Shown here: in pieces, positions 5,459 through 35,836 of the stretch
How the letters are laid out: the number at the start of each line of letters is the position of its first letter
Position numbering within the stretch: the stretch's first letter is position 1
Origin: Enterovibrio norvegicus DSM 15893
Lineage (GTDB): Bacteria > Pseudomonadota > Gammaproteobacteria > Enterobacterales > Vibrionaceae
Length of the DNA stretch: 48,058 bases
Direction: 5' to 3'
Assembly: GCF_900115495.1 (NCBI RefSeq)
Contig: NZ_FOWR01000040.1
Coordinates: 1 to 48,058 of the forward strand
Made by a program: the position numbers and the translations under genes
The notes under the pieces: model-generated
Seen by the model: only the letters and a program-made list of their open reading frames with translations
Told to the model about the DNA's origin: nothing
Databases searched by the model: none

Positions 5459-5487
5459 TTGACGCTGATAAAACCCCTTGATAACCT
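5459..5487 (+). promoter_or_regulatory. Possible sigma-70 promoter of the ACP operon
   Basis: TTGACG at 5459-5464 is followed after 17 bases by TAACCT at 5482-5487. The -35 match is good and the -10 match is weak. An overlapping TTGATA at 5478 is an alternative -35. Confidence 0.3.
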
Positions 5488-5559: not shown

Positions 5560-5847
5560 ATGAGTAATTCTATAGGAAATTCAAAATATTTAACGGACTC
5601 GCTAATATCTGAGATCATGAGTCGCTTAGAGTCGGAGTCAGAAACTGCGATTGCAGCGAAGGATATTTTACCCACGATGTCATTGCGTGAGGATCTAGGA
5701 ATGGACTCTATGCAGGCTGTGTCGCTTACCCTAGACCTAGAAGACTCTTTGTCTATTTCTATAGATGATGAAGACTTAATTAAACTCGACACTGTCAGTG
5801 ACCTTTTGAACATTATTGAATCCAAGCTAAGTCAAAAAAATGGATAG
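5560..5847 (+). CDS. Acyl carrier protein
   Basis: The 95-residue acidic protein carries the phosphopantetheine attachment motif GMDSMQAV, with Ser50 as the modified residue. It is a dedicated carrier distinct from the housekeeping AcpP, which sits in the fab operon and is shorter. Family knowledge says it would hold growing acyl chains as thioesters in the cytoplasm. It is the first gene of a six- or seven-gene operon and overlaps the next start by 8 bases, so the two are probably translationally coupled. The ribosome binding site is weak (GGTGG about 8 bases before ATG). Confidence 0.9.
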   Translation: MSNSIGNSKYLTDSLISEIMSRLESESETAIAAKDILPTMSLREDLGMDSMQAVSLTLDLEDSLSISIDDEDLIKLDTVSDLLNIIESKLSQKNG

Positions 5848-7090
5848 TCGTAGACGTGTAGTGATCACCGGTGTGGGTGTCGTTTCTTCAATAGGCAATG
5901 ACTTTGACACGCTGACGGAATCTTTAAAGCTTGGTCGCAGTGGTATTCGTGCGGTCAAATCATGGTCTGAGTTTGGGTTAACGAGCCGTGTTGCGGGCTT
6001 GATTGATCTCGACGAGGCTAAAATACAGTCTGCGAACATCCCACTAAAACTCCGCAGAGCGATGCCGACCTCTACGCTTTATTGCAGTGTTGCTGCAAGT
6101 GATGCTATTTCGGCTTCTCGCTTAACCCCTGAAGAACTCGCTGACCCTCGAACTGCTTGCCTTGTTGGCAGCGGTGTGGCGGATGTTGGTGTGATACACA
6201 AAGAAGGGGCGAGGTATTACGCAGGGAATGTGCGAAGAACTGAACCCTATACTGTGCTCAAGTCCATGAGCAGCACGGCGAGTGCCATCCTCACTAAGCT
6301 CTTTGGCATCACAGGGCGCAGCTATTCGATCTCGTCTGCGTGTGCGACGGGTGCGCACAACATTGGGCACGCTTACGAACTGATCCGTGATGGGGTGATT
6401 GACCGCGCCGTAACGGGTGGCTGTGAGGAGGTGAATGAGTTGATCGTTGCGTCTTTTCAAGCATTGAGAATGGCCCTTTCTACAGGGTTTAACGACACAC
6501 CTGAAAGCGCATCGCGCCCCTATGATACTGATAGAGATGGGTTTGTGATTAGCGGTGGGGCGGGTGTACTTGTATTGGAATCCCTTGATTCAGCGTTAGC
6601 GCGTAACGCGCCCATTTATGCAGAAATTGTAGGTTATGCCGCCAATTCAGACCCTTATGACTTAGTTCTACCACAAGCCGATGGCGGTACATTTGTTGAT
6701 TGTATTGCCAGTTCATTAGACGACGCGGGTATTTCCCCTGTCGATATTGATGCCATTAACACGCATGGAACAGGGACTGTCGCGGGCGATGTGGCCGAAG
6801 TGAATGGTCTACGCAGGGCGTTTGGTAACAATGTTCCAAGGTTCTCGTCGACAAAATCAATGACAGGGCATGCGATCGGTGCAGTCGGGGCCATTGAGTT
6901 GATCGCTTGCATTGCGATGCTGAAAGAGGGCTTTATCGCCCCTTCTATCAATATCGATAATCTCGATCCTCTTTTTGCTGATGCCCCTATCGTTCGAGAA
7001 ACCACAGAGGCTGATTTGAAGACAATGCTGTCTTTGAACTTTGGTTTCGGTGGAACGAACGCAGCGACGATCCTGAGAAAAATGGACTGA
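5840..7090 (+). CDS. Beta-ketoacyl-ACP synthase (KAS II/FabF-like)
   Basis: This 416-residue thiolase-fold condensing enzyme extends acyl chains by decarboxylative condensation with malonyl-ACP. The Cys-His-His triad is intact: Cys168 in SSACATGAHN, His309 in NTHGTGT and His344 in STKSMTGHAIGA. The C-terminal GFGGTNA motif is also present, and length fits the family. Because it has the catalytic Cys, it is not a chain-length-factor-type inactive partner. Its start lies inside the end of the ACP gene, so the two proteins are probably made together. No ketoreductase or enoyl reductase accompanies it, so those steps would have to come from primary fatty acid synthesis. Confidence 0.93.
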   Translation: MDSRRRVVITGVGVVSSIGNDFDTLTESLKLGRSGIRAVKSWSEFGLTSRVAGLIDLDEAKIQSANIPLKLRRAMPTSTLYCSVAASDAISASRLTPEELADPRTACLVGSGVADVGVIHKEGARYYAGNVRRTEPYTVLKSMSSTASAILTKLFGITGRSYSISSACATGAHNIGHAYELIRDGVIDRAVTGGCEEVNELIVASFQALRMALSTGFNDTPESASRPYDTDRDGFVISGGAGVLVLESLDSALARNAPIYAEIVGYAANSDPYDLVLPQADGGTFVDCIASSLDDAGISPVDIDAINTHGTGTVAGDVAEVNGLRRAFGNNVPRFSSTKSMTGHAIGAVGAIELIACIAMLKEGFIAPSINIDNLDPLFADAPIVRETTEADLKTMLSLNFGFGGTNAATILRKMD

Positions 7091-7113
7091 CACTTTGGAA
7101 TCTGTGACTGGCG

Positions 7114-7626
7114 ATGATGAATAGACGTTTTATTGATGGGTTGAGGGGGCCGCAAGGCCACCTACAAAAAGAGGCTATTCGCGCGATCTTATCGTACGGC
7201 GATGCCTTTTTGTTTGTGGACTCCGTGAGCCATTTGACTGATTCGGATATCGTCGCGCAATACCACATCCCCGAATCGTCTGAACTGATTGATGCACACT
7301 TCAAACATGCCCGCATGATGCCGGGTGTTCTAATGGGCGAAGCATTAGCACAAGCCGGTATTGTGTTAGTGCATTACCGAAGTGAGTTTGAAGAAGAGAC
7401 AGATGTGATTGCGAGTACCGTCAACCAAATGCGGTTTAAGTCTCCCGCATTGCCCGGAGATACCTTAGAAGCACGCGTCAGCATAAAGGCGATCAATCGT
7501 CTTGGGGCGAGGCTCACTGGGCATTCCTACGTCAATGATCGCGAGGTATTGTCTGCCACGTTTGATCTCACGTTTATAAAGCGAAAGAACCTTATTGAAC
7601 ATATCTCTCAACACGTCACGCGTTGA
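7114..7626 (+). CDS. FabZ/FabA-like hot-dog 3-hydroxyacyl-ACP dehydratase
   Basis: The 170-residue protein aligns by motif with FabZ: YGDAFLFVDSV near residue 28 corresponds to the family's PFLLVDRV, and AHFKHARMMPGVLMGEALAQAG corresponds to GHFPGxPxxPGVLxxEAMAQ. The family's catalytic His and Glu are both kept (His62, Glu76). It would dehydrate 3-hydroxyacyl-ACP to the 2-enoyl form. It begins 24 bases after the synthase. An ATG at 7117 is an alternative start. A thioesterase or other hot-dog role is less likely given the catalytic pair. Confidence 0.85.
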   Translation: MMNRRFIDGLRGPQGHLQKEAIRAILSYGDAFLFVDSVSHLTDSDIVAQYHIPESSELIDAHFKHARMMPGVLMGEALAQAGIVLVHYRSEFEEETDVIASTVNQMRFKSPALPGDTLEARVSIKAINRLGARLTGHSYVNDREVLSATFDLTFIKRKNLIEHISQHVTR

Positions 7627-7670
7627 GAGCAGGCGTATCCTATTTATTCGCCCAATCATCAAATTGCTGC

Positions 7671-7790
7671 ATGCCTATACAAGGTGAATTCGAGTACATG
7701 GAAGTCGTTTGGGTAAACTTCAACTGTCGTGTGATAGACATTTTGGACGTTGTTTCATCATGCGTTAAACAATATGAGTGGGGATTTTAG
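7671..7790 (+). CDS. Small ORF, 39 residues, overlapping the first GNAT gene
   Basis: An ATG at 7671 opens a 39-codon frame ending in TAG at 7788-7790. The last base of the stop is the first base of the likely GTG start of the next gene (TAGTG), a classic coupling arrangement. The product starts MPIQGEFEYM and ends QYEWGF. It is acidic, has two Cys, and has an alternating hydrophobic centre (VIDILDVV). No strong ribosome binding site precedes 7671; an in-frame ATG at 7698 (30 residues) is possible, with AAGGTG 12 bases upstream. I do not recognise it. It could be a second peptide substrate, a small partner protein or only a coupling leader. Confidence 0.45.
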   Translation: MPIQGEFEYMEVVWVNFNCRVIDILDVVSSCVKQYEWGF

Positions 7791-8239
7791 TGTCCTTTAG
7801 ATTAGCAACGGTAAATGACTTTATTGATGTAACGCCATCTCGTTTTAGGTGCTCGAGTTATAAAAATTCAGCATATCCTCTTGGTTGTTCAATGTCAGAA
7901 CTTGATTCAGCGTTGGGAGAGGGGGACTTTGCTTTTTTTAATGAAACGATCAACGTGGGATTTATCAGAATAAAAGCCATGTTTCATGGCATCGCCTATC
8001 TTGATTTCCATTTGCTCAGTGGCATGGCCGACAAAGAAGTGCAGTCTGTGTTGAGCTGGCTATCTGAACACTACGATATCGGAAAATATTACCTGCAGTT
8101 ACTTCCCCATGAACAGCTGGAGCTAGATTGCTTAACGCGTTTAGGTTTCACCGAAGAAGCGCGTTTAAGAGATCAGTTGTTTGTTGAAGGGACATATTGC
8201 GACTTAATCATGATGGGAAGTGAGGATAAACGTGTTTGA
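7790..8239 (+). CDS. GNAT-family N-acyltransferase (first of two)
   Basis: The product of about 149 residues has the C-terminal GNAT signature, where LGFTEEARLRDQLFVEGTYCDLIMMG matches the common GF-x-x-E-x-x-R ... G-x-x-x-D-x-x-x-M pattern. GTG at 7790 is chosen because GGGGA lies 5 bases upstream and the protein then starts MSFRLATVNDF like many GNATs. A GTG at 7778 would add four residues. GNATs transfer acyl groups from acyl-CoA or acyl-ACP to amines. Next to a dedicated ACP and synthase, an acyl-ACP donor is likely by inference. A Lys side chain or N-terminus of the small peptide encoded at 14473-14574 is a plausible acceptor. Confidence 0.75.
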   Translation: MSFRLATVNDFIDVTPSRFRCSSYKNSAYPLGCSMSELDSALGEGDFAFFNETINVGFIRIKAMFHGIAYLDFHLLSGMADKEVQSVLSWLSEHYDIGKYYLQLLPHEQLELDCLTRLGFTEEARLRDQLFVEGTYCDLIMMGSEDKRV

Positions 8240-8834
8240 CAGTGTTCGTGGAATCTATTGCGCTATTCGTCGCCCCAATCTCGAAGATCTGGATACCATT
8301 AGTCGCTGGCTAGATGATCCTTACCTGAATTCGACCGTTTTTGACAGTTCAACCTTTGTTAACGGGGCTCAGGAACAAGCGATGACCTGGCTAGAACAGA
8401 ACGCGACTGTTTATGGTGCTGACAACCTCTTGGGGTTGGTCTGTTCTGTGAAAAGTGGCAAGCCAATCGGGATGGTCTGGTTCAATAACATTGACTGGAA
8501 AAGCCGCACTGCAGATCTTCGTTATTTGGTCGGGGAAGCCGAGTATCGTACCAGTGTGTTCGGGCCTGAAATCGCGCTGCTCAGCCTTCAAATGGCTTTT
8601 AATGTGATGAATTTACATAAGATTTTTGGTTACGTTTTGTCGGGGAATGAGGATTCAATGAGTCTGGTAGAATTTGGGGGCATTAAAGAAGGTGTGCTCA
8701 AAAACTACGTGCGAGTAGGCGATGGATGGAACGACTACCATCTTTATGCCATGTTCTCAGATGACTTCCGGGCATTTTTACAAAAACACAAAGATGGGGT
8801 GTTACGCCGCCACTTTAAGAAAGGCCTATTCTAA
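8232..8834 (+). CDS. GNAT-family N-acyltransferase (second, RimJ-like)
   Basis: The product of about 200 residues resembles the RimJ/RimL branch of GNATs: an early IRRPNLEDLDTISRWLDDPYL, then GMVWFNNIDWKSRTADLRYLVGEAEYR, then an NLHKIFGYVLSGNEDSMSLVE stretch typical of the acyl-CoA fold. GTG at 8232 is preferred since TGAGGA lies 5 bases before it; an in-frame GTG at 8220 would add four residues. It overlaps the first GNAT by 8 bases. RimJ-type enzymes often act on protein or peptide N-termini, so the two GNATs may modify different positions of one substrate, which is inference. Confidence 0.78.
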   Translation: MFDSVRGIYCAIRRPNLEDLDTISRWLDDPYLNSTVFDSSTFVNGAQEQAMTWLEQNATVYGADNLLGLVCSVKSGKPIGMVWFNNIDWKSRTADLRYLVGEAEYRTSVFGPEIALLSLQMAFNVMNLHKIFGYVLSGNEDSMSLVEFGGIKEGVLKNYVRVGDGWNDYHLYAMFSDDFRAFLQKHKDGVLRRHFKKGLF

Positions 8835-8836
8835 AC

Positions 8837-9442
8837 GTGGGCCTACTTGCTTTACTGCTTACGTTTGTTGTTTGCGTCTCTTTTTTATACCCGCGAGTCA
8901 TCGGTGATCGCCTTGGCTTCATGTTCATGCTCCCCGTGCTTGCCTATACCGTGATTTTCTATGTGGATTGGCAGTTTGCGTCTCTGACTCAACTTTTTAC
9001 GATGATTGTCGGTGGGGCATGTGTCGGTATCGGTTTGCTGTTCGCGGGGTTACCCTTGAGTTCACCTCAACCAAAAGCATTCATGGTAAACAGCCTGCGC
9101 GGGTTGACGAGCCTTAAAGAAAACAGGCCTTATCTCTTATTTCAAGTTGGGATAACGTGTTACGAAGAGTTGATTTGGCGAGTATTTCTGATCAGCACAT
9201 TGTTGTTGGTGCTGCCTGCTTGGGCAGCAATCTTCCTTTCTTCTGCACTTTTCTGGACCGTTCACGGGGAAAACAGACCGTTAGGGTGGCACTCATTAGA
9301 GTTTTTTATCTTCTCAATGGTGCTTGCTGTTGCTTACAACCTGTTTGAATCCGTGCTCTTTGTTTGGGTTATTCACCTCACCAGAAATGTCCTTATTCTT
9401 TCTGCCTCGGACTATGAGCAACGTCAGGCTAGCCGGAGCTAA
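8837..9442 (+). CDS. CPBP-family intramembrane metalloprotease
   Basis: The 201-residue protein has about six membrane segments and the three CPBP (CAAX protease and bacteriocin-processing) motifs: Glu110-Glu111-x3-Arg115 (CYEELIWR), Phe139-x3-His143 (FWTVH) and His180-x3-Asn184 (HLTRN). Family members cleave prenylated proteins, or are linked to bacteriocin maturation and immunity. It starts with GTG two bases after the previous stop. At the end of this operon, and with a peptide precursor nearby, leader removal or self-protection are the likely roles. The gene ends 11 bases from the convergent permease gene with no terminator between them. Confidence 0.85.
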   Translation: MGLLALLLTFVVCVSFLYPRVIGDRLGFMFMLPVLAYTVIFYVDWQFASLTQLFTMIVGGACVGIGLLFAGLPLSSPQPKAFMVNSLRGLTSLKENRPYLLFQVGITCYEELIWRVFLISTLLLVLPAWAAIFLSSALFWTVHGENRPLGWHSLEFFIFSMVLAVAYNLFESVLFVWVIHLTRNVLILSASDYEQRQASRS

Positions 9443-9453
9443 AAGGTGTATGT

Positions 9454-10698
9454 TCACGCATCCCTGAGCGCATCCACAGGCTTCATTTGTGCCGCTCTTC
9501 TCGCGGGGATATACCCCGCAACCAGTCCAACTAAAATTGACACAAAAAGGGCAATACTGATGCCTAACATTCCCGGAAATAATGGGAAGCCTGTAAAAAC
9601 GTCTAAAACCACCCCAATGAGCATCCCCACGGCCAATCCCGCAAGGCCACCAATCAAACATATCAGCACTGATTCGACAATAAATTGCACCATGATATGG
9701 CTGCGGTGCGCGCCAATGGCCGCACGAATACCGATTTCCCGTGTCCGTTCAGCAACCGCTGTACTCATGATGCCGGCAACACCTATTGCCCCTACGATCA
9801 ACGCGCTAGAGGCGGCAATAATGCCAATGATGGTGACACCGCCAAGAATGTTATCTGTGGTTTTGATGTATGACGCGAGGGTTTCACTTTGATATTCAAA
9901 CACGCCTTGATAGCGTCGCGAGAGCACCCCTTTTAGCTGATCGGCGGCGGCTTCAGCGGCTTCGACCGACGTGGCTTCAACTTGTAGGTAGTTAACGTCG
10001 CTATTTCCATTCAGTGTTTGAATAAGCGGGTAGCTCACTAAAATGCGATTATTCACATCTCCGCCTGCTGAACCGATGCTAGCGAGTAAATCTCGACTTT
10101 TAGATCGCAGAACACCAACAACCTGATATTCACGCCCTGAGATTCTGAGTGTGAGACCTAAGGGATTGGGCATGCCGGGAAACAGGTCAGAGGCCACGGT
10201 TTCGCCGATAACGGCGACAGGTCTACGATTTCTGATTTCTACTTCTCGAAGGCCTCTTCCAATGCGCAGCTGGTCATTGTTGATGGCGAGGTAATCGACA
10301 TTAACGCCGATGACTTGCGCGTTGTTGTAACGATTGCCCGCTTGAATGACAGGGGCGGGACCTCTCGGGTTTACAACAGGACTGATGAGACTGACTGAAG
10401 GACAACAATCACCTTGAAGGGCGATTAAATCGTTGTTGTTGATGCCTGTTCCTGTGCGTGTACGTCTATGCGGGTCTTTGCTGCCATGCGCCCGATATAC
10501 CCAAACAGATTTCAGGCCGAACGTTTCTAATTCCTGCATGACGAATGCTTTGCCACCGGTGCTGACGGTATCAACCGTCATCACGGCGGCGATACCGACC
10601 GCAATGCCAACCATACTCAGCATGGATCTGCCCCAATTAGCTAGCATGGCCAGTCGTGCTTCTTTAAACAAGTCGGGCAGGATGCGGAGTGTTTTCAT
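9454..10698 (-). CDS. MacB/FtsX-type ABC transporter permease
   Basis: The 414-residue protein has one N-terminal membrane helix (about residues 20-42), a large periplasmic domain, and three C-terminal helices ending in AGYIPARRAAQMKPVDALR, the classic FtsX/MacB domain ending. In MacB the ATPase is fused at the N-terminus; here it is encoded by the preceding gene, as in LolCDE-like and split systems. These mechanotransmission transporters drive substrates from the periplasm through an adaptor and TolC. ATGA overlap with the ATPase gene shows coupling. The substrate is presumably the peptide product of this cluster. Confidence 0.9.
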   Translation of the reverse strand: MKTLRILPDLFKEARLAMLANWGRSMLSMVGIAVGIAAVMTVDTVSTGGKAFVMQELETFGLKSVWVYRAHGSKDPHRRTRTGTGINNNDLIALQGDCCPSVSLISPVVNPRGPAPVIQAGNRYNNAQVIGVNVDYLAINNDQLRIGRGLREVEIRNRRPVAVIGETVASDLFPGMPNPLGLTLRISGREYQVVGVLRSKSRDLLASIGSAGGDVNNRILVSYPLIQTLNGNSDVNYLQVEATSVEAAEAAADQLKGVLSRRYQGVFEYQSETLASYIKTTDNILGGVTIIGIIAASSALIVGAIGVAGIMSTAVAERTREIGIRAAIGAHRSHIMVQFIVESVLICLIGGLAGLAVGMLIGVVLDVFTGFPLFPGMLGISIALFVSILVGLVAGYIPARRAAQMKPVDALRDA

Positions 10699-11357
10699 GT
10701 CACTATCCTGCCGTCTCGCATGTGTAGCACTCTGTCAGCCGCTTCGGCCAAATGTGCATCGTGAGTGACCATGACAATGGTATGCCCGTCAGCATGTAGC
10801 GCTTTGAACAAATCCATCACCTGCTGCCCAGTTTGGCTGTCTAATGCGCCAGTTGGCTCATCTGCGATCAGTAATTTTGGCTTGTTCACCAACGCTCGAG
10901 CAATTGCCACACGTTGTTGCTGTCCACCGGAGAGTTGATTCGGGAAATGCGTTGCGCGATCGGCGAGGCCCACGCGTTCGAGTGCAGATAACGCCATGGC
11001 TTTGCGCTGGGAAGACGGGGTGCCTTGGTAGACCAAAGGAAGCATGACGTTGGCTAAAGCATCACGGCGTGATAACAAATTAAACGATTGAAAGATGAAC
11101 CCAATTAACGATGAACGAAGCGTTGCGAGCCCATCATCCTCCGTTAAATGAACGGCGGTGCCATCCAAATGGTAGGTGCCTTTGTCGGCGTTGTCTAAGC
11201 AGCCAATAATGTTGAGAAGGGTGCTTTTTCCTGAACCAGAGGCACCCATTATGGTCACGAATTCTCCCTGCTTAATGCTCAGGTCAACGCCTTGTATGAT
11301 GGGCAAGGGCGTGTCTCCTCGGAAGTAGGATTTATGCAGGGATTCAATCTTGATCAT
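10695..11357 (-). CDS. MacB/LolD-type ABC transporter ATP-binding protein
   Basis: The 220-residue ATPase shows Walker A (GASGSGKS), signature [15 protein letters not shown], Walker [13 protein letters not shown] and the H-loop MVTHD, in the arrangement of the MacB/LolD branch. The ATG at 11357 ([11 protein letters not shown]) is chosen over a longer frame because the extra N-terminus is only readthrough of the adaptor gene. The true start overlaps the adaptor stop by 14 bases. It powers the adjacent FtsX-type permease. Confidence 0.92.
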
Positions 11358-12465
11358 GTTTCGCTGCAAACCTTGCTGTACGGCCATTTTCAAGATACCC
11401 GCTATCAAACAGGGCAACCTGTTGCCCTTCTTGAACGCCGCTGAGGATTTCAACATGTGTGTCCGTTTCTAACCCTGATTCGACAGGTTGCAAACGAATG
11501 ACGCCTTGTTCTACCAATGCAACTTCAAAGTGCCCAGGCTCGCGTTCACGCAGGGCGCTGTAGGGCAGTCTAAGCACATCGCCTCGTTCTTCTATCACGA
11601 TTTCAATGTCCAGTTGTTGCCCGAGCAGAAGTTTAGGGGCATCGGCACCTAACCCCATGCGTACTGGAAACGTATTTAAATGGCGTGCTGATGTACGCTC
11701 GATAGCGGGGCCAATCCAATGAATTTTCGTTTGCCAGCCTATGTCTGGGAAAGCATCAGACGTCACATTGACCAATTGGCCAACGTGAATTCTTCCGGTA
11801 TCAACGGCATCCAGGTTGGCTTCAATTTCCCATCCCTCAATTGCGACGAGTTGGAAAAGCTCCGTACCGGCTTCTACCCATTGCCCAGATTCGGTCCACT
11901 TATCCACGATAACGGCGTCGAAAGGGGCGTTAAGCTTTTGCCAATCTTGTTCAAGTACACGCATTTGGGCGTCAGCGTGGGCAATAGCAACCGCAGCTTG
12001 TGCGGTTTCCATTTCAAATTTAACTTGGTCTAGCGCTTCGACGGAGACGAGGTTTCTATTGGAAAGCTCCGATACTCGATTGTAGCGTTGCCTCTGTTCT
12101 TTTAAACGAACAGTTTCTTGCTGAACGACGGCTTTAGCGCGTTTGAGTCGGGTCATGGATGCGCGGTTATCCATGGCGGCCAAAGTGTCATCTTTGTTGA
12201 CCAGATCTCCGCGAGCAACATAGACCTGCTCGACGCGACCATTCACTAAGGCTGTCAAAGAAACGGTACGATCATTAATCACTTCACCCGTCACTCGAAT
12301 GATGTAGGCCATGTCATTGCGTTGTACTTGCACGCCTGACACTTCCAGAGGGGGCGTTTGGTAGAAAAAGTAGCCTGTGGCAGCAGCTGAAACCAGAATA
12401 AGGATAGCGAAGGTGCTCTTGAAGTAGCCTCTCACAGATTGCTTACTAGACTGCTTCAATTTCAT
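11344..12465 (-). CDS. Periplasmic adaptor (MacA/HlyD, RND-type membrane fusion protein)
   Basis: The product of about 373 residues has a short cytoplasmic tail, one membrane helix (about residues 18-36), a lipoyl-like half (VNGRVEQVYVARGDLVNKDD), a coiled coil (about 110-180), a second lipoyl half, then beta-barrel segments. This is the MacA-like architecture linking an inner-membrane transporter to TolC. The ATG at 12465 (MKLKQSSKQ) has GAGAG 8 bases upstream; a TTG at 12480 would add five residues. It lies between the ABC exporter and the ATPase/permease pair in one operon. Confidence 0.88.
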   Translation of the reverse strand: MKLKQSSKQSVRGYFKSTFAILILVSAAATGYFFYQTPPLEVSGVQVQRNDMAYIIRVTGEVINDRTVSLTALVNGRVEQVYVARGDLVNKDDTLAAMDNRASMTRLKRAKAVVQQETVRLKEQRQRYNRVSELSNRNLVSVEALDQVKFEMETAQAAVAIAHADAQMRVLEQDWQKLNAPFDAVIVDKWTESGQWVEAGTELFQLVAIEGWEIEANLDAVDTGRIHVGQLVNVTSDAFPDIGWQTKIHWIGPAIERTSARHLNTFPVRMGLGADAPKLLLGQQLDIEIVIEERGDVLRLPYSALREREPGHFEVALVEQGVIRLQPVESGLETDTHVEILSGVQEGQQVALFDSGYLENGRTARFAAKHDQD

Positions 12466-12663
12466 AAGAGGTGCTCTCAATTCTCTATCCCTACTGCTTC
12501 ATACATTACGAGGCCGTTAGCGCTTTCACTCTTATATATTTAAGAGGCTATGTGGGGAGTATATCCCTTCGCGTGTTGATCATAAGTCTCAGTTTTGCTT
12601 AAACATTCAGTCTCTATCAGCGAGTGAGAACGGACAAGGCTTCCTGTTTAAACAAACCCACGC

Positions 12664-14364
12664 TTAACTCACCTTTTTTGGCGCTGTTTCAGTCACGCGA
12701 GTGGCGTTACTTAAGCTGTCGTTCTCTAGATAAACGACACGTTCAACCGCATCAAATAGGCGGTCATCATGGCTGACAATCACCACAATTTTTGACTGTT
12801 TAAGAGAGCGTATAACATCAATCAGCAGGGTTACCGCTTCACTGTCCAAGTTATTCGTGGGCTCGTCCATTAGCAAAATCGGTGTATCGCGCAGTAATGC
12901 ACGCGCGAGGCCTAGTTTTTGGACTTGGCCACCTGATAGCTCTGAATGGGCATTTTTAATGACATGATCAATGCCTTGGTCGAGGCGCTCAACCCACTTA
13001 TCCAGCCCTACCAAAGAGAGCGCTGCTTGAATCTTTTCCTGCTCAACGTCCATGCCAAACGTCACGTTGTTACGAATGGAGTCTGAAATGATGTGGATCT
13101 TTTGCGGCACCATCGAAATCCACTGAGACCGGCTTGGTAAGGTATTTAGGCGTATAGTGTCGAGTGCAATGTGCCCTGATTGCGGTTTGAGCTCTCCGCT
13201 AAGAATGGTGAGTAGCGTTGATTTTCCAGCCCCGTTACCGCCGTTAATCAAGTGTGCTTGGCCTTTATTGAAAGCCAAGTCTAGCTCGGTGAATAAAGGG
13301 TAGTCGTGCTGGTAGGAAAAACTCATCCCCTCCAAACGCATCGACTCAATGGTGGTTGAGGGGGCGATGTCGGCACTAACGCGATCAACCGAATCTTGCT
13401 GAGATTGCGCTTGCGCTAAATCCCCCAGTTCTTTTACGCGCATTAACGCCGTCAATTCGTTAGGCATACTGGAAGCAAACTCAATGATCCTAATCAGTGA
13501 AGGCACCATCAAGTTGAGTGTCGCCATATAGGTGATGATTAAGCCCACGGTCAACTGTTCTTCTATGACCATCGCACCACCAAGATACCAAATGATAACC
13601 ACGGCTAGCATGGGGATCCCCATAATGATCATGCTCACTTTGGTATCATATAATTGACGGGTGAAGCGCTTCCGCTCCAAATCTTCAACGGCTTTTCGGC
13701 AATATTTCGAAAAGAAATTGCTAGCATCATATATTTTTATTTCTGCATCAGCTTCTATGGTTTCTTGTACGACAGTGAATTTTTTTGCGGAGGCATCCGT
13801 TTCATCTTTAGATGATAACCATAGAGCACTGTCAAATCGCATGTAAACAAGGATAGCTGCGGGTAGCAAGACAAGAAGAATGGCACTTAATTGCCAATTC
13901 ATGAAAAAAACGATCACTAATAAAACGAGCGATAAGACGAAATGATGGATAGCGCTTGATAGCCCATAAGGCATAATGACTTCAAACTGATCTATATCCC
14001 TTGTGACTCGCGAGAGTAGATCACCATTATTGATTTTTATTCGCTGATTAAAATTCAAACCCAGTATGCTTTTAATAACATCCTGATTAAAATCAATCAT
14101 AATATCTTCGCGTACTTTTAGACGAAATCGCGCGTTTACATAACTGGTCACCAAATAACCGCTATAAAGAATGGCGAGCAACGAAACAGTCTTCAGCAGT
14201 AAATCTGAATCTGCGCTAGGCAGCACTTGGTCAATGATATGGCCTGACAGGTAGGGCAGTGGCGCCTGAAATGCTGTTAGTAATAAAGCTAATAGCAGAA
14301 AAGATAAAGAATGATATTTTCTTCTTTTATAGATGAGCTTGTATAAGTAAGAAATTCGGGTCAC
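12664..14364 (-). CDS. ABC exporter with fused membrane and ATPase domains
   Basis: The 566-residue half-transporter has six membrane helices (about residues 15-300) followed by a nucleotide-binding domain with Walker A GGNGAGKST, signature LSGGQVQKLGLARAL, Walker B PILLMDEPTNNLD and H-loop VSHDD. Type I exporters of this size move peptides and lipids. It lacks the N-terminal C39 peptidase of double-glycine bacteriocin exporters, so leader removal would need another protease such as the CPBP protein. The start is GTG at 14364 with AGGA 7 bases upstream. It lies 108 bases downstream of the small peptide gene, with a hairpin between, and is its closest partner. Confidence 0.92.
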   Translation of the reverse strand: MTRISYLYKLIYKRRKYHSLSFLLLALLLTAFQAPLPYLSGHIIDQVLPSADSDLLLKTVSLLAILYSGYLVTSYVNARFRLKVREDIMIDFNQDVIKSILGLNFNQRIKINNGDLLSRVTRDIDQFEVIMPYGLSSAIHHFVLSLVLLVIVFFMNWQLSAILLVLLPAAILVYMRFDSALWLSSKDETDASAKKFTVVQETIEADAEIKIYDASNFFSKYCRKAVEDLERKRFTRQLYDTKVSMIIMGIPMLAVVIIWYLGGAMVIEEQLTVGLIITYMATLNLMVPSLIRIIEFASSMPNELTALMRVKELGDLAQAQSQQDSVDRVSADIAPSTTIESMRLEGMSFSYQHDYPLFTELDLAFNKGQAHLINGGNGAGKSTLLTILSGELKPQSGHIALDTIRLNTLPSRSQWISMVPQKIHIISDSIRNNVTFGMDVEQEKIQAALSLVGLDKWVERLDQGIDHVIKNAHSELSGGQVQKLGLARALLRDTPILLMDEPTNNLDSEAVTLLIDVIRSLKQSKIVVIVSHDDRLFDAVERVVYLENDSLSNATRVTETAPKKVS

Positions 14365-14413
14365 AGTCCGATCCTGGTTTAGAGGAAAACTATTTCCCTA
14401 AAAATGTGTAAAG

Positions 14414-14435
14414 TGGGGATAAAACATCATCCCCA
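14414..14435 (-). terminator. Hairpin between peptide gene and exporter gene, possible attenuator
   Basis: TGGGGAT at 14414-14420 pairs with ATCCCCA at 14429-14435 around an 8-base loop. On the minus strand five Ts follow only 9 bases later, so termination would be partial. Such leaky hairpins commonly give more precursor peptide than transporter; here that is inference. Confidence 0.4.
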
Positions 14436-14472
14436 TTTTATTATAAAATTCCTAATATATTTTTAACGTATA

Positions 14473-14574
14473 TTAAGGTGTTCCACAACAAGGACCTGGA
14501 TTAGGATGAGTAGGCTTTTTATGTTTCGTAGCCAGTACAGGTCCTTTTTTCGCAGCAAAGTTTATTTTTTTCAT
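14473..14574 (-). CDS. Small Lys-rich peptide, 33 residues, candidate modified-peptide precursor
   Basis: The ATG at 14572-14574 has AAGGAAAG just upstream, a strong ribosome binding site, and the frame stops with TAA at 14473-14475. The peptide begins MKKINFAAKK and ends HPNPGPCCGTP. It has seven Lys (2, 3, 9, 10, 17, 19, 20), two His, a proline-rich tail and a vicinal Cys29-Cys30 pair. It has no signal peptide and no double-Gly leader end. Position at the head of an exporter operon, beside acyl-ACP enzymes and GNATs, makes it the likely substrate. Lys or N-terminal acylation is the first hypothesis; a disulfide or metal site at the Cys pair is also possible. I know of no named family with this sequence. 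Confidence 0.75.
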   Translation of the reverse strand: MKKINFAAKKGPVLATKHKKPTHPNPGPCCGTP

Positions 14575-14655
14575 AATCTTTCCTTTTTTAATGAAGCCAA
14601 TGATTGACGTAATTACTGTGTGTATTTTATTTGTCGACTAAATAAATACCATGGC

Positions 14656-14684
14656 ATTGTTGTGGTGATTCTTTTGGAAGTCAA
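14656..14684 (-). promoter_or_regulatory. Probable sigma-70 promoter of the peptide/exporter operon
   Basis: On the minus strand TTGACT (14679-14684) is separated by exactly 17 bases from AACAAT (14656-14661), giving a 5' leader of about 75 bases before the peptide ATG. Confidence 0.5.
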
Positions 14685-14777
14685 CTTTTAAGAAGTGATG
14701 AACTGGGCCTATATTTATTGAATCGTTAAAGTGATGAGAGTGTCGTTTATTTGAGAATGAAAGAGGCTATGCTTTAC

Positions 14778-14854: not shown

Positions 14855-15085
14855 ATGGTGTTTCACTTATGGTTAAAATTTGAACGCGATTGGTCTGGAG
14901 GATAGGACGAAATTGTTGGGTATCTATGAAGCAAGATCACTGCGACATCAAAAACGATTTTTCTCTGTTTCGATGTCACAGTGAACGGAAATACCTCTCA
15001 TCTCTTCCATTGCCATGGTGTTTTACGCATCGCTGACGTGTCAGTCCTGCCGGCGGCACCTTCTCATTTAACGCTATCACTTGGC
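14855..15085. other. Intergenic region between peptide operon and TRAP operon
   Basis: With the promoter and repeat above, this completes a gap of about 510 bases without recognised genes. It holds an imperfect inverted repeat (14937-14984). A 36-codon plus-strand frame from ATG 14926 lacks a well-placed ribosome binding site and is not called. No clear terminator for the TRAP operon was found. Confidence 0.5.
14937..14984. repeat. Imperfect inverted repeat, 17-base arms
   Basis: TCACTGCGACATCAAAA at 14937-14953 is complementary to 14968-14984 with two mismatches, around a 14-base loop. It lies downstream of the TRAP genes and upstream of the peptide operon. It could be a transcript end or a dyad for a regulator. 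Confidence 0.5.
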
Positions 15086-16384
15086 CTATTTATACCCAAG
15101 GAAGTACTCCGGCAAAAATAGAGATATTTGCGGAATAAAAGTGATAAGCAGAAGCGCTCCAATCAAGGTAATAACCCAGGGTAGTATCCGCTTGGCTATT
15201 TTCTCGAAGGGTATCTCTCCCACTTGGGCCGCCATAAAGAGGTTTGCGCCAAGCGGAGGTGTCACGAAACCGATGGCAAGCGCCACGATCATCACAATGC
15301 CAAAATGCACTAAATCCACGCCAAGTTTGGTGAGCACGGGCAGTAACACTGGCGTCAGGATGACAATCGAGGCCAGCGTTTCCAAGAAGGTGCCGATGAT
15401 AAGGAGCAATACGAGTATCGCGAGGAGGACGAAATATTTGTTTTCCGTACTCGATAAAACGAACTGCGCCAGTTCGGTGGGGATCTTCTCTAGTGCGATA
15501 ATGCGACCAAAGGCCACGGATGCGCCGATAATCACGAGCACTGCGGAGACCAGCATGGCCGACTCCAGCATGATCTTGGGTAATTGCTTCATCGGAAGTT
15601 CGCGATACACCAAACAAGACACGATCAAGGCGTATACCACGGCTACGGCAGAAGACTCCGTTGGCGTGACAATGCCGCCGTAGATGCCACCGAGAATAAC
15701 AATGGGCATGATGAGTGCGAGCTTTGCTTCATTGAGTACATGGAAGATTTCTTTGTATGTCGCGGGTGCTCGAGTATCTACCATGTGAGCATGGCGGTTT
15801 TGTCTGCGGTGAAAGTAGTTGTAAGTGATCAAAGTAATGGCGATCACGATACCGGGCAGAATCCCTGCCATAAACAGCGCCGTCACTGATACGCCCGCCG
15901 CAACGGCGTACACAATCATGACCACGGAAGGGGGAATCATCACGCCTAATCCGCCAGCACTCGCTACCATAGCGCCAGCATAGGCACGGTCATACCCTCG
16001 CTGAACAAGGGCGGGGATCATCGCTAAACCGACCGCTGCGACTGTGGCAGAGCCTGTACCTGATATGGCTGCGAAGAATAGGCAAGCCATGATCGTGACG
16101 GTACCTAAATCCCCGGGTGCGCGACCAAACAAGGTATCGGCAACGGCAATCAAACGTTTGGAAATTCCCCCTTTGCTCATGATGTTGCCTGCAAGGGTGA
16201 ACAACACAACAGCAATCAAGGTGAAGCTGTTGATGCCACTGACGAGCCCAAGCGCATATAAATCGGGCTTGAGAAAAGGGATGTACATAATGGCGAGAAG
16301 CGATGCTGAACCAAGGGCGATACCAATCGGTACGCCAATGAGTAACATGCTAAAGAAACCTGCGAAGAGAATCAGTGATGTCAT
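15086..16384 (-). CDS. TRAP transporter large permease (DctM family)
   Basis: The 432-residue protein with about 12 hydrophobic helices fits the DctM subunit in length and opens MTSLILFAGFFSMLLIGVPIGIALG, the family's usual start. Conserved GVITPTESSAVAVVYAL and TPPLGANLFMAA stretches are present. It carries organic acids inward using a sodium gradient together with the small and binding subunits. It overlaps the small subunit by 4 bases (ATGA). It is the last gene of the long minus-strand catabolic arm. Confidence 0.95.
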   Translation of the reverse strand: MTSLILFAGFFSMLLIGVPIGIALGSASLLAIMYIPFLKPDLYALGLVSGINSFTLIAVVLFTLAGNIMSKGGISKRLIAVADTLFGRAPGDLGTVTIMACLFFAAISGTGSATVAAVGLAMIPALVQRGYDRAYAGAMVASAGGLGVMIPPSVVMIVYAVAAGVSVTALFMAGILPGIVIAITLITYNYFHRRQNRHAHMVDTRAPATYKEIFHVLNEAKLALIMPIVILGGIYGGIVTPTESSAVAVVYALIVSCLVYRELPMKQLPKIMLESAMLVSAVLVIIGASVAFGRIIALEKIPTELAQFVLSSTENKYFVLLAILVLLLIIGTFLETLASIVILTPVLLPVLTKLGVDLVHFGIVMIVALAIGFVTPPLGANLFMAAQVGEIPFEKIAKRILPWVITLIGALLLITFIPQISLFLPEYFLGYK

Positions 16385-16881
16385 GATGGTTTCTCCTCGC
16401 TGTTATACAGACTCAGATCACTACGTACACCAATTTGGTACAACGAATAGAGAAGTCGCAAGCTACACAGCAACCCCGAAAAGATGATGGCGGCGTAAAG
16501 CACAGACGTTGACCATTGTGTGGCTGATAAGGTTTTACCGCGCTCGATGGCTTGTTGCGTAATTTGTACGCCAAGGTAGCACACCGTGACGGAGTAGATG
16601 AGGAAGATGGATTCGCTGATAAACATCACAATCCGTTTCTTCTTTTGCGAGAACTTGTCGACAAAGTAAGTGACTCGCATGTGCCGATGTTCGCGGATGG
16701 CGTAACTGATCCCAAAGTAAATGAGGTAGACGAAGCACAGCCTTGCGATTTCATTGGCGATAACGATAGAGGTTGAGAAGGCAAAGCGCGCGATCACATC
16801 AGCAAACACCAACACAATGATCGCGAAGAGGCTGGTGACGATGATGGTAGGTTCGAAATACTTTTCGATGATCCGAAACAT
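16381..16881 (-). CDS. TRAP transporter small permease (DctQ family)
   Basis: The product of about 166 residues has four membrane helices, as expected for DctQ, including the IANEIARLCFVYLIYFGISYAIREHRHMRVTYF segment typical of the family. The ATG at 16881 (MFRIIEKYFEP) is chosen. The frame extends 23 codons upstream to an ATG at 16950, but that part is not family-like. It sits between the binding protein and large permease genes. Confidence 0.9.
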   Translation of the reverse strand: MFRIIEKYFEPTIIVTSLFAIIVLVFADVIARFAFSTSIVIANEIARLCFVYLIYFGISYAIREHRHMRVTYFVDKFSQKKKRIVMFISESIFLIYSVTVCYLGVQITQQAIERGKTLSATQWSTSVLYAAIIFSGLLCSLRLLYSLYQIGVRSDLSLYNSEEKPS

Positions 16882-17045
16882 GGTGGATGACTCTCCCTGA
16901 CAGCCCATTTGAGAACGGCCTAGACACAAGCTAAACACAGGGCGTCTCAATCTTTGAGAAGCCCTATGCGCGATGCTCTAAGTGTTAAGTACAGTGCTAA
17001 GTGAGCAAATTATCTTTCTTTACGAGTGATAGTGCTGTGTCACCA

Positions 17046-18029
17046 CTAAGGTTGAAGGTTCGACATAAACTGGTCGTAGAAATCACTGCCCACTTTTTTA
17101 CGTATGTCGGCTTCAATCGCGGTGTTCATGGTTTTACCCAAACGTTCGCGGTCTTCTAACGGTAGGCTGTTAACCTTGAGCCCTTTTTCTTTGAGTGCTG
17201 CTAACGTTTCGTTATTTGTCTTCAAGGTTAAGTCGCGTTGAAGTAGCACGGTTTCTCTTGCAACTTCATCAATCAATTGACGGTCTTTGTCATCAAGATC
17301 GTTGTACCACTCGAGGTTGGCCATCCAAAGTTCAGGCCAGTAAATGTGATTGGTGAGCGATACGTATTTCTGCACTTCAAAAAAGCGCTCAACAAGCATG
17401 GAAGACAAGGCACTTTCTTGTCCGAAAATCAGGTTTTGCTGGAGCGATGAATAGATCTCTCCCCATGTCAGCGGGATGGGCACGGCATCAACAGAACGCC
17501 ATGCACTGATGGCGATAGGGTTATCCGCCGATCGCATACGCAGCCCCGCAAATGCGTCATAACTATCAAGCGGTGCGCGGTTGTTGGTGAAGCTTCTAAA
17601 ACCTAATTCCATAAAGCCCATTGACTTCAAGCCGCGTTTTTCCATGGCGGTGCCCAATGATTTGCCTGCTTCGCCATCAAGCACATTTCGTGCAGTGTCT
17701 TCATCGGCAAACAGCAAGAATTGGTCAAGTACAGCCAACTCATTCACTGTAGAAGACAGGTGAACGGACGCGCCCGTTGCCATGGTAATGTTGCCAGACT
17801 GAACAAGTTCGGTCATTTCTCTCACGCTACCGAGTTGGCCGCCAGGGTAGATTTCAACATCGATGTCCCCGTTGGATCGTTTCTCCAATTCTTTCTCAAA
17901 ATAAAGCAACGATTGATGAATGGGGGAAACTTCTGGTGTGGCGTGGCCAATCCGAATGGTTGTGTCAGCATAAGATGCGCTGGTGGAAAGTAATCCGGCT
18001 ATGACGGTCATCATCAATGAAAATTTCAT
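17046..18029 (-). CDS. TRAP transporter substrate-binding protein (DctP family)
   Basis: The product of about 327 residues starts at ATG 18029, 8 bases after AAGGAG, and has a signal peptide (MKFSLMMTVIAGLLSTSASYA). The mature start TTIRIGHATPEVSPIHQ and the central MRSADNPIAISAWRSVDAVPIPLTWGEIYSSLQ, with an Arg that normally grips a carboxylate, are typical DctP features. It is a periplasmic receptor, so the ligand is probably a carboxylate. It lies 131 bases after the aldolase gene, so it may also have its own promoter. Confidence 0.93.
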   Translation of the reverse strand: MKFSLMMTVIAGLLSTSASYADTTIRIGHATPEVSPIHQSLLYFEKELEKRSNGDIDVEIYPGGQLGSVREMTELVQSGNITMATGASVHLSSTVNELAVLDQFLLFADEDTARNVLDGEAGKSLGTAMEKRGLKSMGFMELGFRSFTNNRAPLDSYDAFAGLRMRSADNPIAISAWRSVDAVPIPLTWGEIYSSLQQNLIFGQESALSSMLVERFFEVQKYVSLTNHIYWPELWMANLEWYNDLDDKDRQLIDEVARETVLLQRDLTLKTNNETLAALKEKGLKVNSLPLEDRERLGKTMNTAIEADIRKKVGSDFYDQFMSNLQP

Positions 18030-18160
18030 GGTGTACTCCTTTTTTGAGCCGTAAATGCCTGCACCGCTCATTATGAGCAGCGTGGTGGTGTTTCTGTGTT
18101 CATGGGTATTGCGTTGGTGTTGTCTCAGCGCATCGAAATCACGCGAGACGATGAAAAACG

Positions 18161-18856
18161 CTAAGTTCGCACACGCTCGAATTCAGCCCATGCTTTTTCG
18201 AATCGGTCAAAGTTGAAGCCTTCTTCTCTTGCCGCTTTCAAAATGATTTGTTCATTCCTGAGCAAGGTTTCAATGGCGTCAGCGAGCAACGGAATGATGT
18301 CCGTCGGGATCACCACTGCGCCATGTCGGTCAGCATGGATGAGATCGCCGTGGGACACGTTTAAACCGAATACGTTAACGGGTTCTCCAATACTCTCGAT
18401 ATGAACAAACCCATGACTTGGGCCCACTGACCCTGCGAGAACGAGAAATTCATCGGGTAAATCGCCGAGATCGCGCATCACGCCATTGGTTAATACACCA
18501 CTCAATCCGAACCCCTTGTGGACATTGGTATTGATTTCCCCCCAAAACGCGCCGATGGCGTCCGGGAAATCCAAATCTTCAATCACTGCGAGGGAAGGGA
18601 AGGGGGCTTCCGACATGTATCGGTAGTAGTCCATGCGCAGTTTTTTTACATCATCAGCGGGCAACCTAGAAGGTTCAAGTGCCGCAATCATTGCCGTTTT
18701 TGCATACCCCACGATGGCGGGATTTTCGGGGGCTGATGTTTGCAATGTTCCCCGCGTGAAATCGTTGAATCCGCGTTTACCTTGAGCGACTTCTATCGCG
18801 TTGCACACCGTTGGGGTGTCCACACTGATCAGTAATTCATAGAGCGTTTTATCCAT
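18161..18856 (-). CDS. RraA-like aldolase/decarboxylase (HMG aldolase family)
   Basis: The 231-residue protein carries the RraA-fold signature around SGVLTNGVMRDLGDLP and DLIHADRHGAVVIP. Metal-dependent members of this family cleave 4-hydroxy-4-methyl-2-oxoglutarate or decarboxylate oxaloacetate; others with the fold are RNase E regulators. In a catabolic operon with transporter genes, a retro-aldol or decarboxylase step is more likely. Its ATG overlaps the stop of the hydrolase gene by one base (TAATG). Confidence 0.82.
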   Translation of the reverse strand: MDKTLYELLISVDTPTVCNAIEVAQGKRGFNDFTRGTLQTSAPENPAIVGYAKTAMIAALEPSRLPADDVKKLRMDYYRYMSEAPFPSLAVIEDLDFPDAIGAFWGEINTNVHKGFGLSGVLTNGVMRDLGDLPDEFLVLAGSVGPSHGFVHIESIGEPVNVFGLNVSHGDLIHADRHGAVVIPTDIIPLLADAIETLLRNEQIILKAAREEGFNFDRFEKAWAEFERVRT

Positions 18857-19563
18857 TAACTATTCAACCATGCAGCGAGTGCGCGCGTGGTTGCCTCCGG
18901 TTGTTCGAGAGTGGGAAGATGGCCAGCGTGTTTAATGACCACATAATCTGCATGAGGGATGAGGGTTTTGATCGCATCATGTCTGTCTTTTGGGCATAGC
19001 TGATCGTCTTCACCCATTAAAATCAAAGTGGGAATATCAACATGCTTGAGCGTTTCTTGTTGATCGGGTCGATCTCGCAGCGCCAGAGATTGATTGACGA
19101 ATGCTGCGTCGCCGAGGCTTTTCGCCATGTGAAGACAAATTGCTTCGATATAGTGATTGGGGTGGTCTCGGTGAAGATACTTAGGGATCATGACCTCTTG
19201 CATGACACTCAGAAGCTCCCTGTTGGCGACACGATCAAGATGGATCTGTCGTCCTGCTTTTACCTCGTCGATTTCTGCGCGCGGGTTAGTATCCATGAGC
19301 GCTAATCTGCTGATGCGATGCGGCGCTTGCCGATAGACTTCCATCGCCAATATGCCGCCCATAGACAGGCCCGCGAGTGCGAAACGTTCAGGCGAATTTT
19401 TGAGCACTTTTCTGGCGAGTGATGCCATCGATTGTTCAGAAGCAATATCCATCACTATGACGTTTCGATCTGTTTGGAATGCTGCTATTTGTGGCGCAAA
19501 CAATCGCTCATCACACATCATGCCGGGCAGAAATACCAAAGGCTCAAGAGAGACGTTGTTCAT
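18856..19563 (-). CDS. Alpha/beta hydrolase
   Basis: The 235-residue alpha/beta-fold protein has a nucleophile elbow GLSMGG (Ser67), an Asp in GEDDQLCP and a His in KHAGHLPTLEQPE, a complete triad. The opening LVFLPGMMCDERLFAPQ gives the oxyanion-hole region. Relatives include BioH/MenH-like esterases and C-C or lactone hydrolases. Coupled to the RraA-like aldolase, it may open a lactone or cleave an ester of the catabolic intermediate. The substrate cannot be read from sequence. Confidence 0.85.
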   Translation of the reverse strand: MNNVSLEPLVFLPGMMCDERLFAPQIAAFQTDRNVIVMDIASEQSMASLARKVLKNSPERFALAGLSMGGILAMEVYRQAPHRISRLALMDTNPRAEIDEVKAGRQIHLDRVANRELLSVMQEVMIPKYLHRDHPNHYIEAICLHMAKSLGDAAFVNQSLALRDRPDQQETLKHVDIPTLILMGEDDQLCPKDRHDAIKTLIPHADYVVIKHAGHLPTLEQPEATTRALAAWLNS

Positions 19564-20522: not shown

Positions 20523-20533
20523 TTCACACTCCT

Positions 20534-20647
20534 TGTTGTGGCGGCTATCTCGTATTGCGGCAGCTCTCTTGTCTTGTGATAGCTCCCTTGAATCGTAATA
20601 GTTCTCTTGAATTGCAATAGTTCTCTAGAATCGCAATAGCTAACCCG
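20534..20647. repeat. Degenerate 19-bp tandem repeat, about six copies, between SnoaL-like and bicupin genes
   Basis: Units begin at 20534, 20553, 20572, 20591, 20610 and 20629. The clearest are AATCGTAATAGTTCTCTTG and AATTGCAATAGTTCTCTAG. The array fills almost the whole gap between two co-oriented genes and runs into the bicupin gene's ribosome binding region and the SnoaL-like gene's stop. Copies drift towards the bicupin side. Confidence 0.75.
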
Positions 20648-24446: not shown

Positions 24447-24452
24447 TAAAAA

Positions 24453-25787: not shown

Positions 25788-25830
25788 CGTGTTTCTCCAT
25801 TCACGGAGCAAACGGAGAGATTCAAAGTGA

Positions 25831-29131: not shown

Positions 29132-29138
29132 TCTTGTT

Positions 29139-29158
29139 GCCCCGAGAGGAATCGGGGC
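29139..29158 (+). repeat. Hairpin between binding protein and permease genes
   Basis: GCCCCGA (29139-29145) and TCGGGGC (29152-29158) form a GC-rich stem with a 6-base loop and no T-run. Hairpins here commonly stabilise the abundant binding-protein mRNA; that role is inferred. Confidence 0.6.
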
Positions 29159-29182
29159 GTCTAACGGCAAAGGAGTGGGTCC

Positions 29183-30214: not shown

Positions 30215-30223
30215 GAGTTCATC

Positions 30224-31102: not shown

Positions 31103-31105
31103 GTC

Positions 31106-34676: not shown

Positions 34677-34703
34677 ACCGTTAACGCATAAAGGACGATG
34701 ACG

Positions 34704-35699: not shown

Positions 35700-35730
35700 A
35701 GGTTACTCGAGCAACCAGAGGGAAAAAGGG

Positions 35731-35760: not shown

Positions 35761-35836
35761 TCTCCCCAGGCTGCTCGGAAAGATAGAAGCATGGCTGGCC
35801 AATAGGCTGACGAATTAAGCTTGATGGAATTCAAAA

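Follow-up and report, generated by a model that had tools for sequence, protein, structure and literature searches.

We analysed a 48,058-nucleotide stretch of Enterovibrio norvegicus DSM 15893 (the window below, which is one entire contig, G000:C32, of the 5.45 Mb genome), and in particular positions 5560-14574, where eleven genes form two convergent operons whose stop codons lie 11 nt apart. The acyl operon, on the plus strand, encodes in this order an acyl carrier protein (ACP), a ketosynthase, a dehydratase, two GNAT-family proteins (GNAT1 and GNAT2) and a CPBP protease. The peptide-export operon, on the minus strand, encodes a short peptide, an ABC exporter, an HlyD adaptor and a MacB-type ATPase and permease. 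We suggest that the eleven genes rather probably make up a self-contained system that produces an acylated peptide of ribosomal origin and carries it out of the cell.

Genes and features of the two operons

An earlier reading made from the sequence alone had described these two operons, and its genes and coordinates are borne out by the open reading frames (ORFs) and by Pfam and NCBIfam scans of ten cluster proteins, from which the families were assigned (Table 1). It had also counted as a cluster gene a small ORF (7623-7790) between the dehydratase and GNAT1. We reject that ORF, because it was found only in a sister species (L013; the loci of eight relatives, described below, are L013 to L020) and because the gap between the dehydratase and GNAT1 matches shrinks to 12 nt in L014 and 3 nt in L020.

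The nine known copies of the peptide have 29-40 residues and are conserved at both ends, with MKKxxFxAKKGPVLATK at the start, a proline-rich stretch of variable length and PGPCC(G)TP at the end (in alignment A2 the L015 row is given one Met longer). Over the first 17 codons, the nine copies vary at 3, 2 and 14 sites at codon positions 1, 2 and 3, respectively, and the mean non-synonymous divergence (dN) was 0.065 against a mean synonymous divergence (dS) of 1.23, for those 23 of the 36 pairs whose dS could be used. The peptide, which the sequence-only reading had taken for a real gene, is thus a selected coding gene. A ribosome-binding-like sequence can be seen by eye upstream of its ATG. Five lysines (K2, K3, K9, K10 and K17) are invariant, and in all nine copies a cysteine stands four residues from the C-terminus, followed by the non-aliphatic residues C/G-T-P. 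None of the nine contains GG, and none of the four that were scanned matched a Pfam or NCBIfam family over cut-off, leader families included; TIGR04101 (CCGSCS motif protein) was rejected at E 0.19 and 12.8 bits, against a cut-off of 28. A second conserved small peptide gene was sought among 38 gap ORFs of at least 15 aa compared at E 0.05, none of which matched all eight relatives; the widest (14620-14691, plus strand) has counterparts in four of the eight, overlaps the peptide promoter and contains a stop in L020.

The first three enzymes of the acyl operon keep the residues expected of them. The serine of the ACP DS motif is invariant in all 11 aligned sequences, as are His62 and Glu76 of the dehydratase, which we take to be the FabZ catalytic pair. 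The ketosynthase motifs SSACAT, NTHGTGT and TGHAIGA, presumably those of the catalytic cysteine and two histidines, are found in all eight full-length cluster copies and in a distant homologue (L063); in another (L064) the third motif reads AGHAIGA. The cluster ketosynthase falls below the FabB cut-off (NF005935; 421.4 versus 630 bits), and the host has a separate FabB (731 bits) and FabF (825 bits, cut-off 759) of its own, so that the cluster enzyme is an extra, FabB-related copy. In enterococci, FabN and FabO set a double bond, and by analogy the FabZ-like and FabB-like pair could also do so here. Two more ketosynthase genes (PRK09185 and PRK09116 families) lie close together on another contig (G000:C11:25653-29222); we assume that they possibly belong to an aryl polyene set.

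In a tree of 23 ketosynthases (L017 was left out, and three long-branched rows make the deep joins unsure), the eight cluster copies of full length fall together (support 100/99), joined at 98/98 by ketosynthases of two genomes, G464 and G249. Peptides that end in CCGTP come from the tree group of the window, L013, L015 and L016 (86/85, not starred), and those that end in CCTP from the group of L014, L018 and L020 (95/90), together with L019, whose placement is open, and L017. G464 and G249, both members of a single genus in a different family of the same class, have ACP, ketosynthase and dehydratase genes in the same order (L063 7900-10416 and L064 8196-10722; 35-38%, 51% and 30-39% identity, respectively), followed by a HIT-domain gene (PF01230); they were the only two such genomes met in one draw of 369. 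The cassette therefore exists apart from the peptide, and the GNATs, the CPBP protein and the export genes are additions of the peptide-bearing cluster. Over 398 genomes of the phylum, from which G249 and G464 (rows of our alignment) were probably not drawn, the dehydratase profile matched only the window's own protein at E 1e-28.

GNAT1, for which a GTG at 7778 is an alternative possible start, matched no Pfam or NCBIfam family at E 0.001 and no Pfam family at E 10; it is identified as a GNAT by weak profile matches to solved GNATs (best E 1.1e-4). The P-loop with which GNATs bind coenzyme A (CoA) is given as Q/R-X-X-G-X-G/A (PMC13060382). In GNAT2, R-x-S-V-F-G replaces it in all nine loci, with valine for the middle glycine, and in GNAT1 no such motif was seen in the alignment of nine, where L020 carries a 10-residue insert. 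The two reading frames overlap in every locus. NpuN, which acts in nostolysamide lipidation, is described as a tandem GNAT with one domain lacking a clear P-loop (PMC13060382). Since the overlapping layout resembles it, GNAT1 and GNAT2 could be a split version of such a tandem enzyme.

The CPBP protein has the features that define its family. The residues of EExxxR, FxxxH and HxxxN/B, which we take as the motifs of these Rce1-like proteases, are invariant in all nine copies, which argues for a working protease; a search against solved structures returned no match at E 1. MroQ is mentioned as a CPBP protein suspected of acting as protease on an auto-inducing peptide, and LnsB, which resembles CPBP proteins and takes part in acylation, as having diverged from the catalytic motifs (PMC7387801). 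A role in acylation like that of LnsB is less likely for the cluster protein, as it keeps those motifs. Among the export proteins, the ABC exporter has no C39 peptidase domain in the Pfam scan. For the MacB-type ATPase an internal Met at 11357 is a better family start; in the long ORF, its closest NCBIfam alignments start at residue 34.

Both operons have probable promoters, as judged from sequence patterns. TTGAC-N18-TANNNT lies less than 200 nt from the ACP start in eight of nine loci (not in L019) and ATTGTT-N18-GTCAA upstream of the peptide gene in all nine, both patterns being derived from the alignment without a chance control. Between the peptide stop and the exporter start, a GGGGAU...AUCCCC hairpin is present in nine of nine loci, with one paired change in L017 (a comparison without shuffle control); for the segment in the window, z was -2.74, and 1 of 200 shuffles folded at least equally well. 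The hairpin is probably a leaky terminator or an mRNA stabiliser, through which the precursor mRNA would outnumber that of the exporter, and its place after the peptide gene in every locus suits a precursor produced in larger amounts than its exporter.

Table 1. Positions of the cluster genes and regulatory features in the window
Feature	Positions	Strand	Basis
Probable sigma-70-type promoter, acyl operon (TTGACG - 17 - TAACCT)	5459..5487	+	pattern TTGAC-N18-TANNNT
Acyl carrier protein, 95 aa	5560..5847	+	PF00550, E 5.4e-10; DS-motif Ser invariant
Ketosynthase, FabB-type paralogue, 416 aa	5840..7090	+	PF00109/PF02801; NF005935, 421 bits
FabZ-type 3-hydroxyacyl-ACP dehydratase, 170 aa	7114..7626	+	PF07977, E 5.2e-14; FabA-like family
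GNAT1, divergent, without CoA-binding P-loop motif	7790..8239	+	alignment of nine; weak profile matches to solved GNATs
GNAT2, altered P-loop R-x-S-V-F-G	8220..8834	+	PF13302; 88-98% identical in eight relatives
CPBP/Rce1-like intramembrane protease, 201 aa	8837..9442	+	PF02517, E 4.6e-10, 40.1 bits (cut-off 22.4)
MacB-type permease	9454..10698	-	PF12704, PF02687 (MacB_PCD and FtsX)
MacB-type ABC ATPase	10695..11357	-	PF00005; listed ORF starts at 11456
HlyD/MacA-type periplasmic adaptor	11344..12480	-	PF13437; TIGR01730, 160.3 bits (cut-off 94.9)
ABC exporter, 566 aa, membrane and ATPase domains	12664..14364	-	PF00664, PF00005
Hairpin GGGGAUGAUGUUUUAUCCCC with short U-rich tail	14400..14440	-	between peptide and exporter genes
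Peptide gene, 33 aa	14473..14574	-	Lys-rich conserved N-terminal half, Pro-rich middle, PGPCC(G)TP end; nine copies, HMM search
Probable promoter, peptide-export operon (TTGACT - 17 - AACAAT)	14656..14684	-	pattern ATTGTT-N18-GTCAA (plus strand)

Inheritance and distribution of the cluster

We searched the GTDB collection for relatives of GNAT2; 82 stretches fit the search patterns, nine of these encode a relative, and the nine reduce to eight distinct loci. All are from Enterovibrio or Grimontia (88-98% identity to the window's GNAT2), the carriers being E. calviensis, E. coralii, E. norvegicus, E. baiacu, two other Enterovibrio, Grimontia indica and G. celer. E. baiacu (L013/L028) is nearest to the window, with 98% identity in GNAT2 and common flanks. 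For comparison we took 17-18 kb around GNAT1 from eight other genomes with a strong match, which makes nine loci with the window. The eleven genes stand in identical order and orientation in all nine, so the set is far beyond chance. In L017 (genome G001) the ketosynthase, permease and exporter genes are each in two or three pieces, through either decay or sequencing error, and the other cluster genes match whole. In Enterovibrio calviensis DSM 14347 each of the eleven is matched as a single piece.

Searches with four different parts of the cluster mark the same nine genomes. GNAT1 matched 9 of 149 genomes at E below 1e-60 (29 at E 0.001, those beyond the nine being weak, at E 7.8e-5 or worse), and a hidden Markov model (HMM) of the peptide matched 9 of 329 Vibrionaceae genomes at E below 1e-14 (36 in all at E 1, the 27 further ones at E 0.066 or worse). 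The ABC exporter was found in 9 of 179 genomes at E<=1e-75, and the ketosynthase in 10 of 179 at E 1e-108, nine of them over 500 bits and the tenth (G130) at 365 bits and 50% identity. The sequence-only reading had asked whether the small peptide co-occurs with the cluster across species, as it does, and had held that related loci with the ACP-to-CPBP operon and no small Lys/Cys peptide would count against it; all eight relatives fetched keep both operon and peptide. The nine carriers belong to one GTDB genus, in which they make up half of the 18 genomes in the collection, and the nine non-carriers include its two smallest genomes (2.1 and 2.6 Mb).

Across the class, the peptide search gave matches in 3 of 369 genomes at E 0.01, two of them chance-like matches of 14-15 residues in other frames. 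A pattern search for GNAT2 in viral contigs gave no match, and in plasmids gave two weak records only (28% and 24% identity); the ketosynthase matched 1291 plasmid records, all under 60%, with FabB/F-like names among the best.

The nine loci lie in seven different surroundings. One, with recQ and a TRAP operon, is common to the window and L013, a second site is common to L018 and L019, and each of the other five loci (L014, L015, L016, L017 and L020) has its own. For most pairs of loci, nucleotide homology ends within a few hundred bases beyond the ACP and peptide genes. The recurrence of all eleven across seven surroundings indicates that they travel together. Part of this diversity, however, is rearrangement within one neighbourhood, because parts of window 27-46 kb lie next to the cluster, on a side that varies, in L014, L017 and L020, and because in genome G011 a block that adjoins the window's cluster sits within some 20 kb of its own. 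That the eleven genes are one system is well supported.

A candidate route to an acylated peptide

The sequence-only reading had proposed a single dedicated lipopeptide pathway. Its one-system part is upheld by the co-inheritance in nine of nine loci; the proposed acylated product, like the presumed use of acyl-ACP by the GNATs and the presumed trimming by the CPBP protease, is consistent with the residues kept. We envisage the following route. On the dedicated ACP, the three intact enzymes would assemble a particular acyl chain, with ketoreduction borrowed from the housekeeping fatty-acid synthesis of the host. The GNAT pair, perhaps acting like the halves of a tandem GNAT, would transfer the chain to an amine of the peptide, either the N-terminus or one of K2, K3, K9, K10 and K17. 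The CPBP protease would trim the lipidated peptide at the membrane, the ABC exporter would carry it to the periplasm, and the adaptor and MacB-type pump, with the TolC of the host, would carry it out of the cell, as their families suggest. The substrate, the order of the steps and the role of the product, which may be a bacteriocin or a signal, are likewise proposals. A precedent for acylation is provided by single GNATs that are described as acylating lysine, ornithine or the N-terminus of ribosomally synthesized and post-translationally modified peptides (RiPPs; PMC13060382, PMC9505594).

Several observations weigh against this route. Co-inheritance ties the genes together and does not place the chain on the peptide. 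The altered P-loops of both GNATs could mean use of acyl-ACP, or equally that the proteins act as scaffolds or have lost transfer altogether. NpuN is reported to have used acyl-CoAs, acetyl-CoA included (PMC13060382), and is therefore no precedent for ACP donors. AlphaFold models of the two GNATs were too poor to use (mean predicted local distance difference test scores, pLDDT, of 44 and 51). A Pfam scan found no ketoreductase, thioesterase, acyl-AMP ligase or phosphopantetheinyl transferase among the eleven genes. Finally, the operons are convergent and not a single transcript, GNAT2 has polyamine, aminoglycoside and ribosomal-protein acetyltransferases as its closest solved relatives, and the cassette of G464 and G249 has no GNAT, CPBP, peptide or exporter gene in the stretch read.

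The last three points would also suit an acyl operon whose product is a small acylated molecule, such as an N-acyl amine formed by the GNATs, with the peptide as its partner or as a separate secreted factor in the same island: each operon has its own promoter-like site, the distant cassette stands beside a HIT-domain gene instead of a peptide, and the solved kin of GNAT2 include enzymes of small amines. We regard this as unlikely, though worth keeping in view, since the GNAT1, exporter, ketosynthase and peptide searches all single out the same genomes and the eleven genes stay together in seven surroundings. The ordinary acetyltransferases among the profile matches of GNAT2 could also be read to mean that the GNATs merely acetylate the peptide from acetyl-CoA, the acyl cassette serving another end; with the middle P-loop glycine replaced by valine in every GNAT2 and the P-loop of GNAT1 not found, we consider this very improbable.

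The acylated-peptide route must also be set against an unacylated, leaderless bacteriocin, exported by the ABC exporter and the MacB-type pump, with the CPBP and GNAT proteins giving self-immunity and the fatty-acid genes adjusting the membrane. The lack of a C39 domain in the exporter and of a double-glycine site in the peptide agrees with such a product, and the CPBP family is said to take its name from CAAX proteases and bacteriocin-processing enzymes (PMC7387801). CPBP and GNAT1 are, moreover, the least conserved proteins (67-73% identity to the window, L013 aside, versus 88-92% for GNAT2), as immunity genes often are. However, the catalytic residues of CPBP are invariant in all nine loci, GNAT2 is among the most conserved proteins, and a dedicated ACP, ketosynthase and dehydratase set would be an unusual immunity device, which makes this explanation improbable.

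Among known systems, the selidamides (kamptornamide, phaeornamide, nostolysamides) resemble the cluster in that a GNAT and an ABC exporter accompany a ribosomal peptide. They are defined by a GNAT that puts a fatty acyl group on a lysine or ornithine side chain, and those presented in PMC13060382 and PMC9505594 have NHLP or Nif11 leaders, a C39 peptidase transporter and fatty acids from primary metabolism, while the related clusters usually, but not always, have a lanthionine synthetase. The cluster, in contrast, has peptides of 29-40 aa of no known leader family and its own ACP-ketosynthase-dehydratase set. As the sequence-only reading had noted, no lanthionine or radical SAM gene occurs among the ten proteins scanned, and no NHLP leader among the four peptides scanned; Nif11 leaders with a Gly-Gly site were likewise not found there, nor a C39 domain in the exporter. 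We therefore do not class the cluster as a selidamide pathway at present, though it probably works like one; should a lysine prove to be acylated, its product would count among the selidamides, broadly understood. In lipolanthines and goadvionins the peptide N-terminus is described as joined to the chain through a GNAT (PMC13060382), and both are class III lanthipeptides hybridised with polyketides (PMC9505594, PMC10435860); the ten proteins scanned include no class III lanthionine synthetase. Double-glycine microcins and bacteriocins are set apart by the GG site and C39 domain that the cluster lacks.

In the darobactin system, DarBCD comprise a split MacB-type ATPase and permease and an HlyD adaptor beside a short peptide. 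The cluster has this same arrangement, but its ATPase scores 237.9 bits against a DarD cut-off of 375, it has an additional full ABC exporter, and no radical SAM enzyme is found among the ten scanned proteins. FabB and FabZ of fatty-acid synthesis share families and catalytic residues with the cluster ketosynthase and dehydratase, which differ in being extra copies in a peptide cluster.

The precursor of yeast a-factor is short and Lys-rich, like the cluster peptide. Both have a cysteine four residues from the C-terminus (CVIA in a-factor, from which Rce1 removes the last three residues; PMC11152559), and the cluster encodes an Rce1-like protease. The structure of the a-factor exporter (7qkr) is one of many matches of the cluster ABC exporter and is of the same broad type. 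A cut of Rce1 type at Cys -4, a split GNAT pair using the dedicated ACP and ABC export would make the cluster an independent bacterial counterpart of the yeast lipidated pheromone pathway. We give this only a slim chance, lowered because the residues after the cysteine are non-aliphatic; CaaX sequences with non-aliphatic a1 and a2 are reported to resist proteolysis in yeast (PMC11152559). Nor does the cluster have genes for the farnesyl prenyltransferase and carboxymethylation of a-factor. If this a-factor-like scheme held, the cluster would define a novel class of ribosomal lipopeptide, equipped with a type II fatty-acid cassette of its own.

To call this a candidate new cluster, as the first description did, is fair within limits, in that no description of the gene set was found in the titles and abstract openings that searches of open-licence PubMed Central text brought up. 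If the proposed acylated-peptide system is real, about 9 kb of DNA link fatty-acid synthesis to a ribosomal peptide with no enzyme of any known RiPP class, and genome-mining tools that look for such enzymes would probably overlook the cluster for that reason. The system would then provide a compact set for lipopeptides of defined chain, make the use of dedicated-ACP chains by GNATs and the action of CPBP proteases on lipidated peptides testable, and point to an unknown secreted bacteriocin or signal in the Vibrionaceae.

The neighbourhood of the cluster

Homologies in the flanks indicate a rearranging neighbourhood. DNA like that of window 32885-33451, a gene without a significant Pfam match, flanks the cluster in L014 and L017 on opposite sides, and DNA like that of a truncated M32 carboxypeptidase gene (window 45472-46065, profile positions 298-489 only) lies beside it in L017 and L020; to judge from these homologues, the region is a hot spot of rearrangement. 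A serine-recombinase fragment (Resolvase N-terminal, PF00239) is found near the peptide end of the cluster in L020 (2601-2984, minus strand). The TRAP/metabolic block of the window (15067-32140) is 93-98% identical in DNA to that of G011 (L072, L020), whereas most of the peptide cluster is only about 76-79% identical, and the block and the cluster probably have separate histories.

At the left end of the window, a Subtilase-family protein (PF00082) followed by acidic DxDxDG-type repeats is encoded at 1-2430 on the minus strand and runs off the contig. Further to the right, positions 33843-45227 resemble a phosphonate C-P lyase operon, with PhnJ at 39539-40426 (PF06007) and neighbours that we take to be the remaining genes of that operon.

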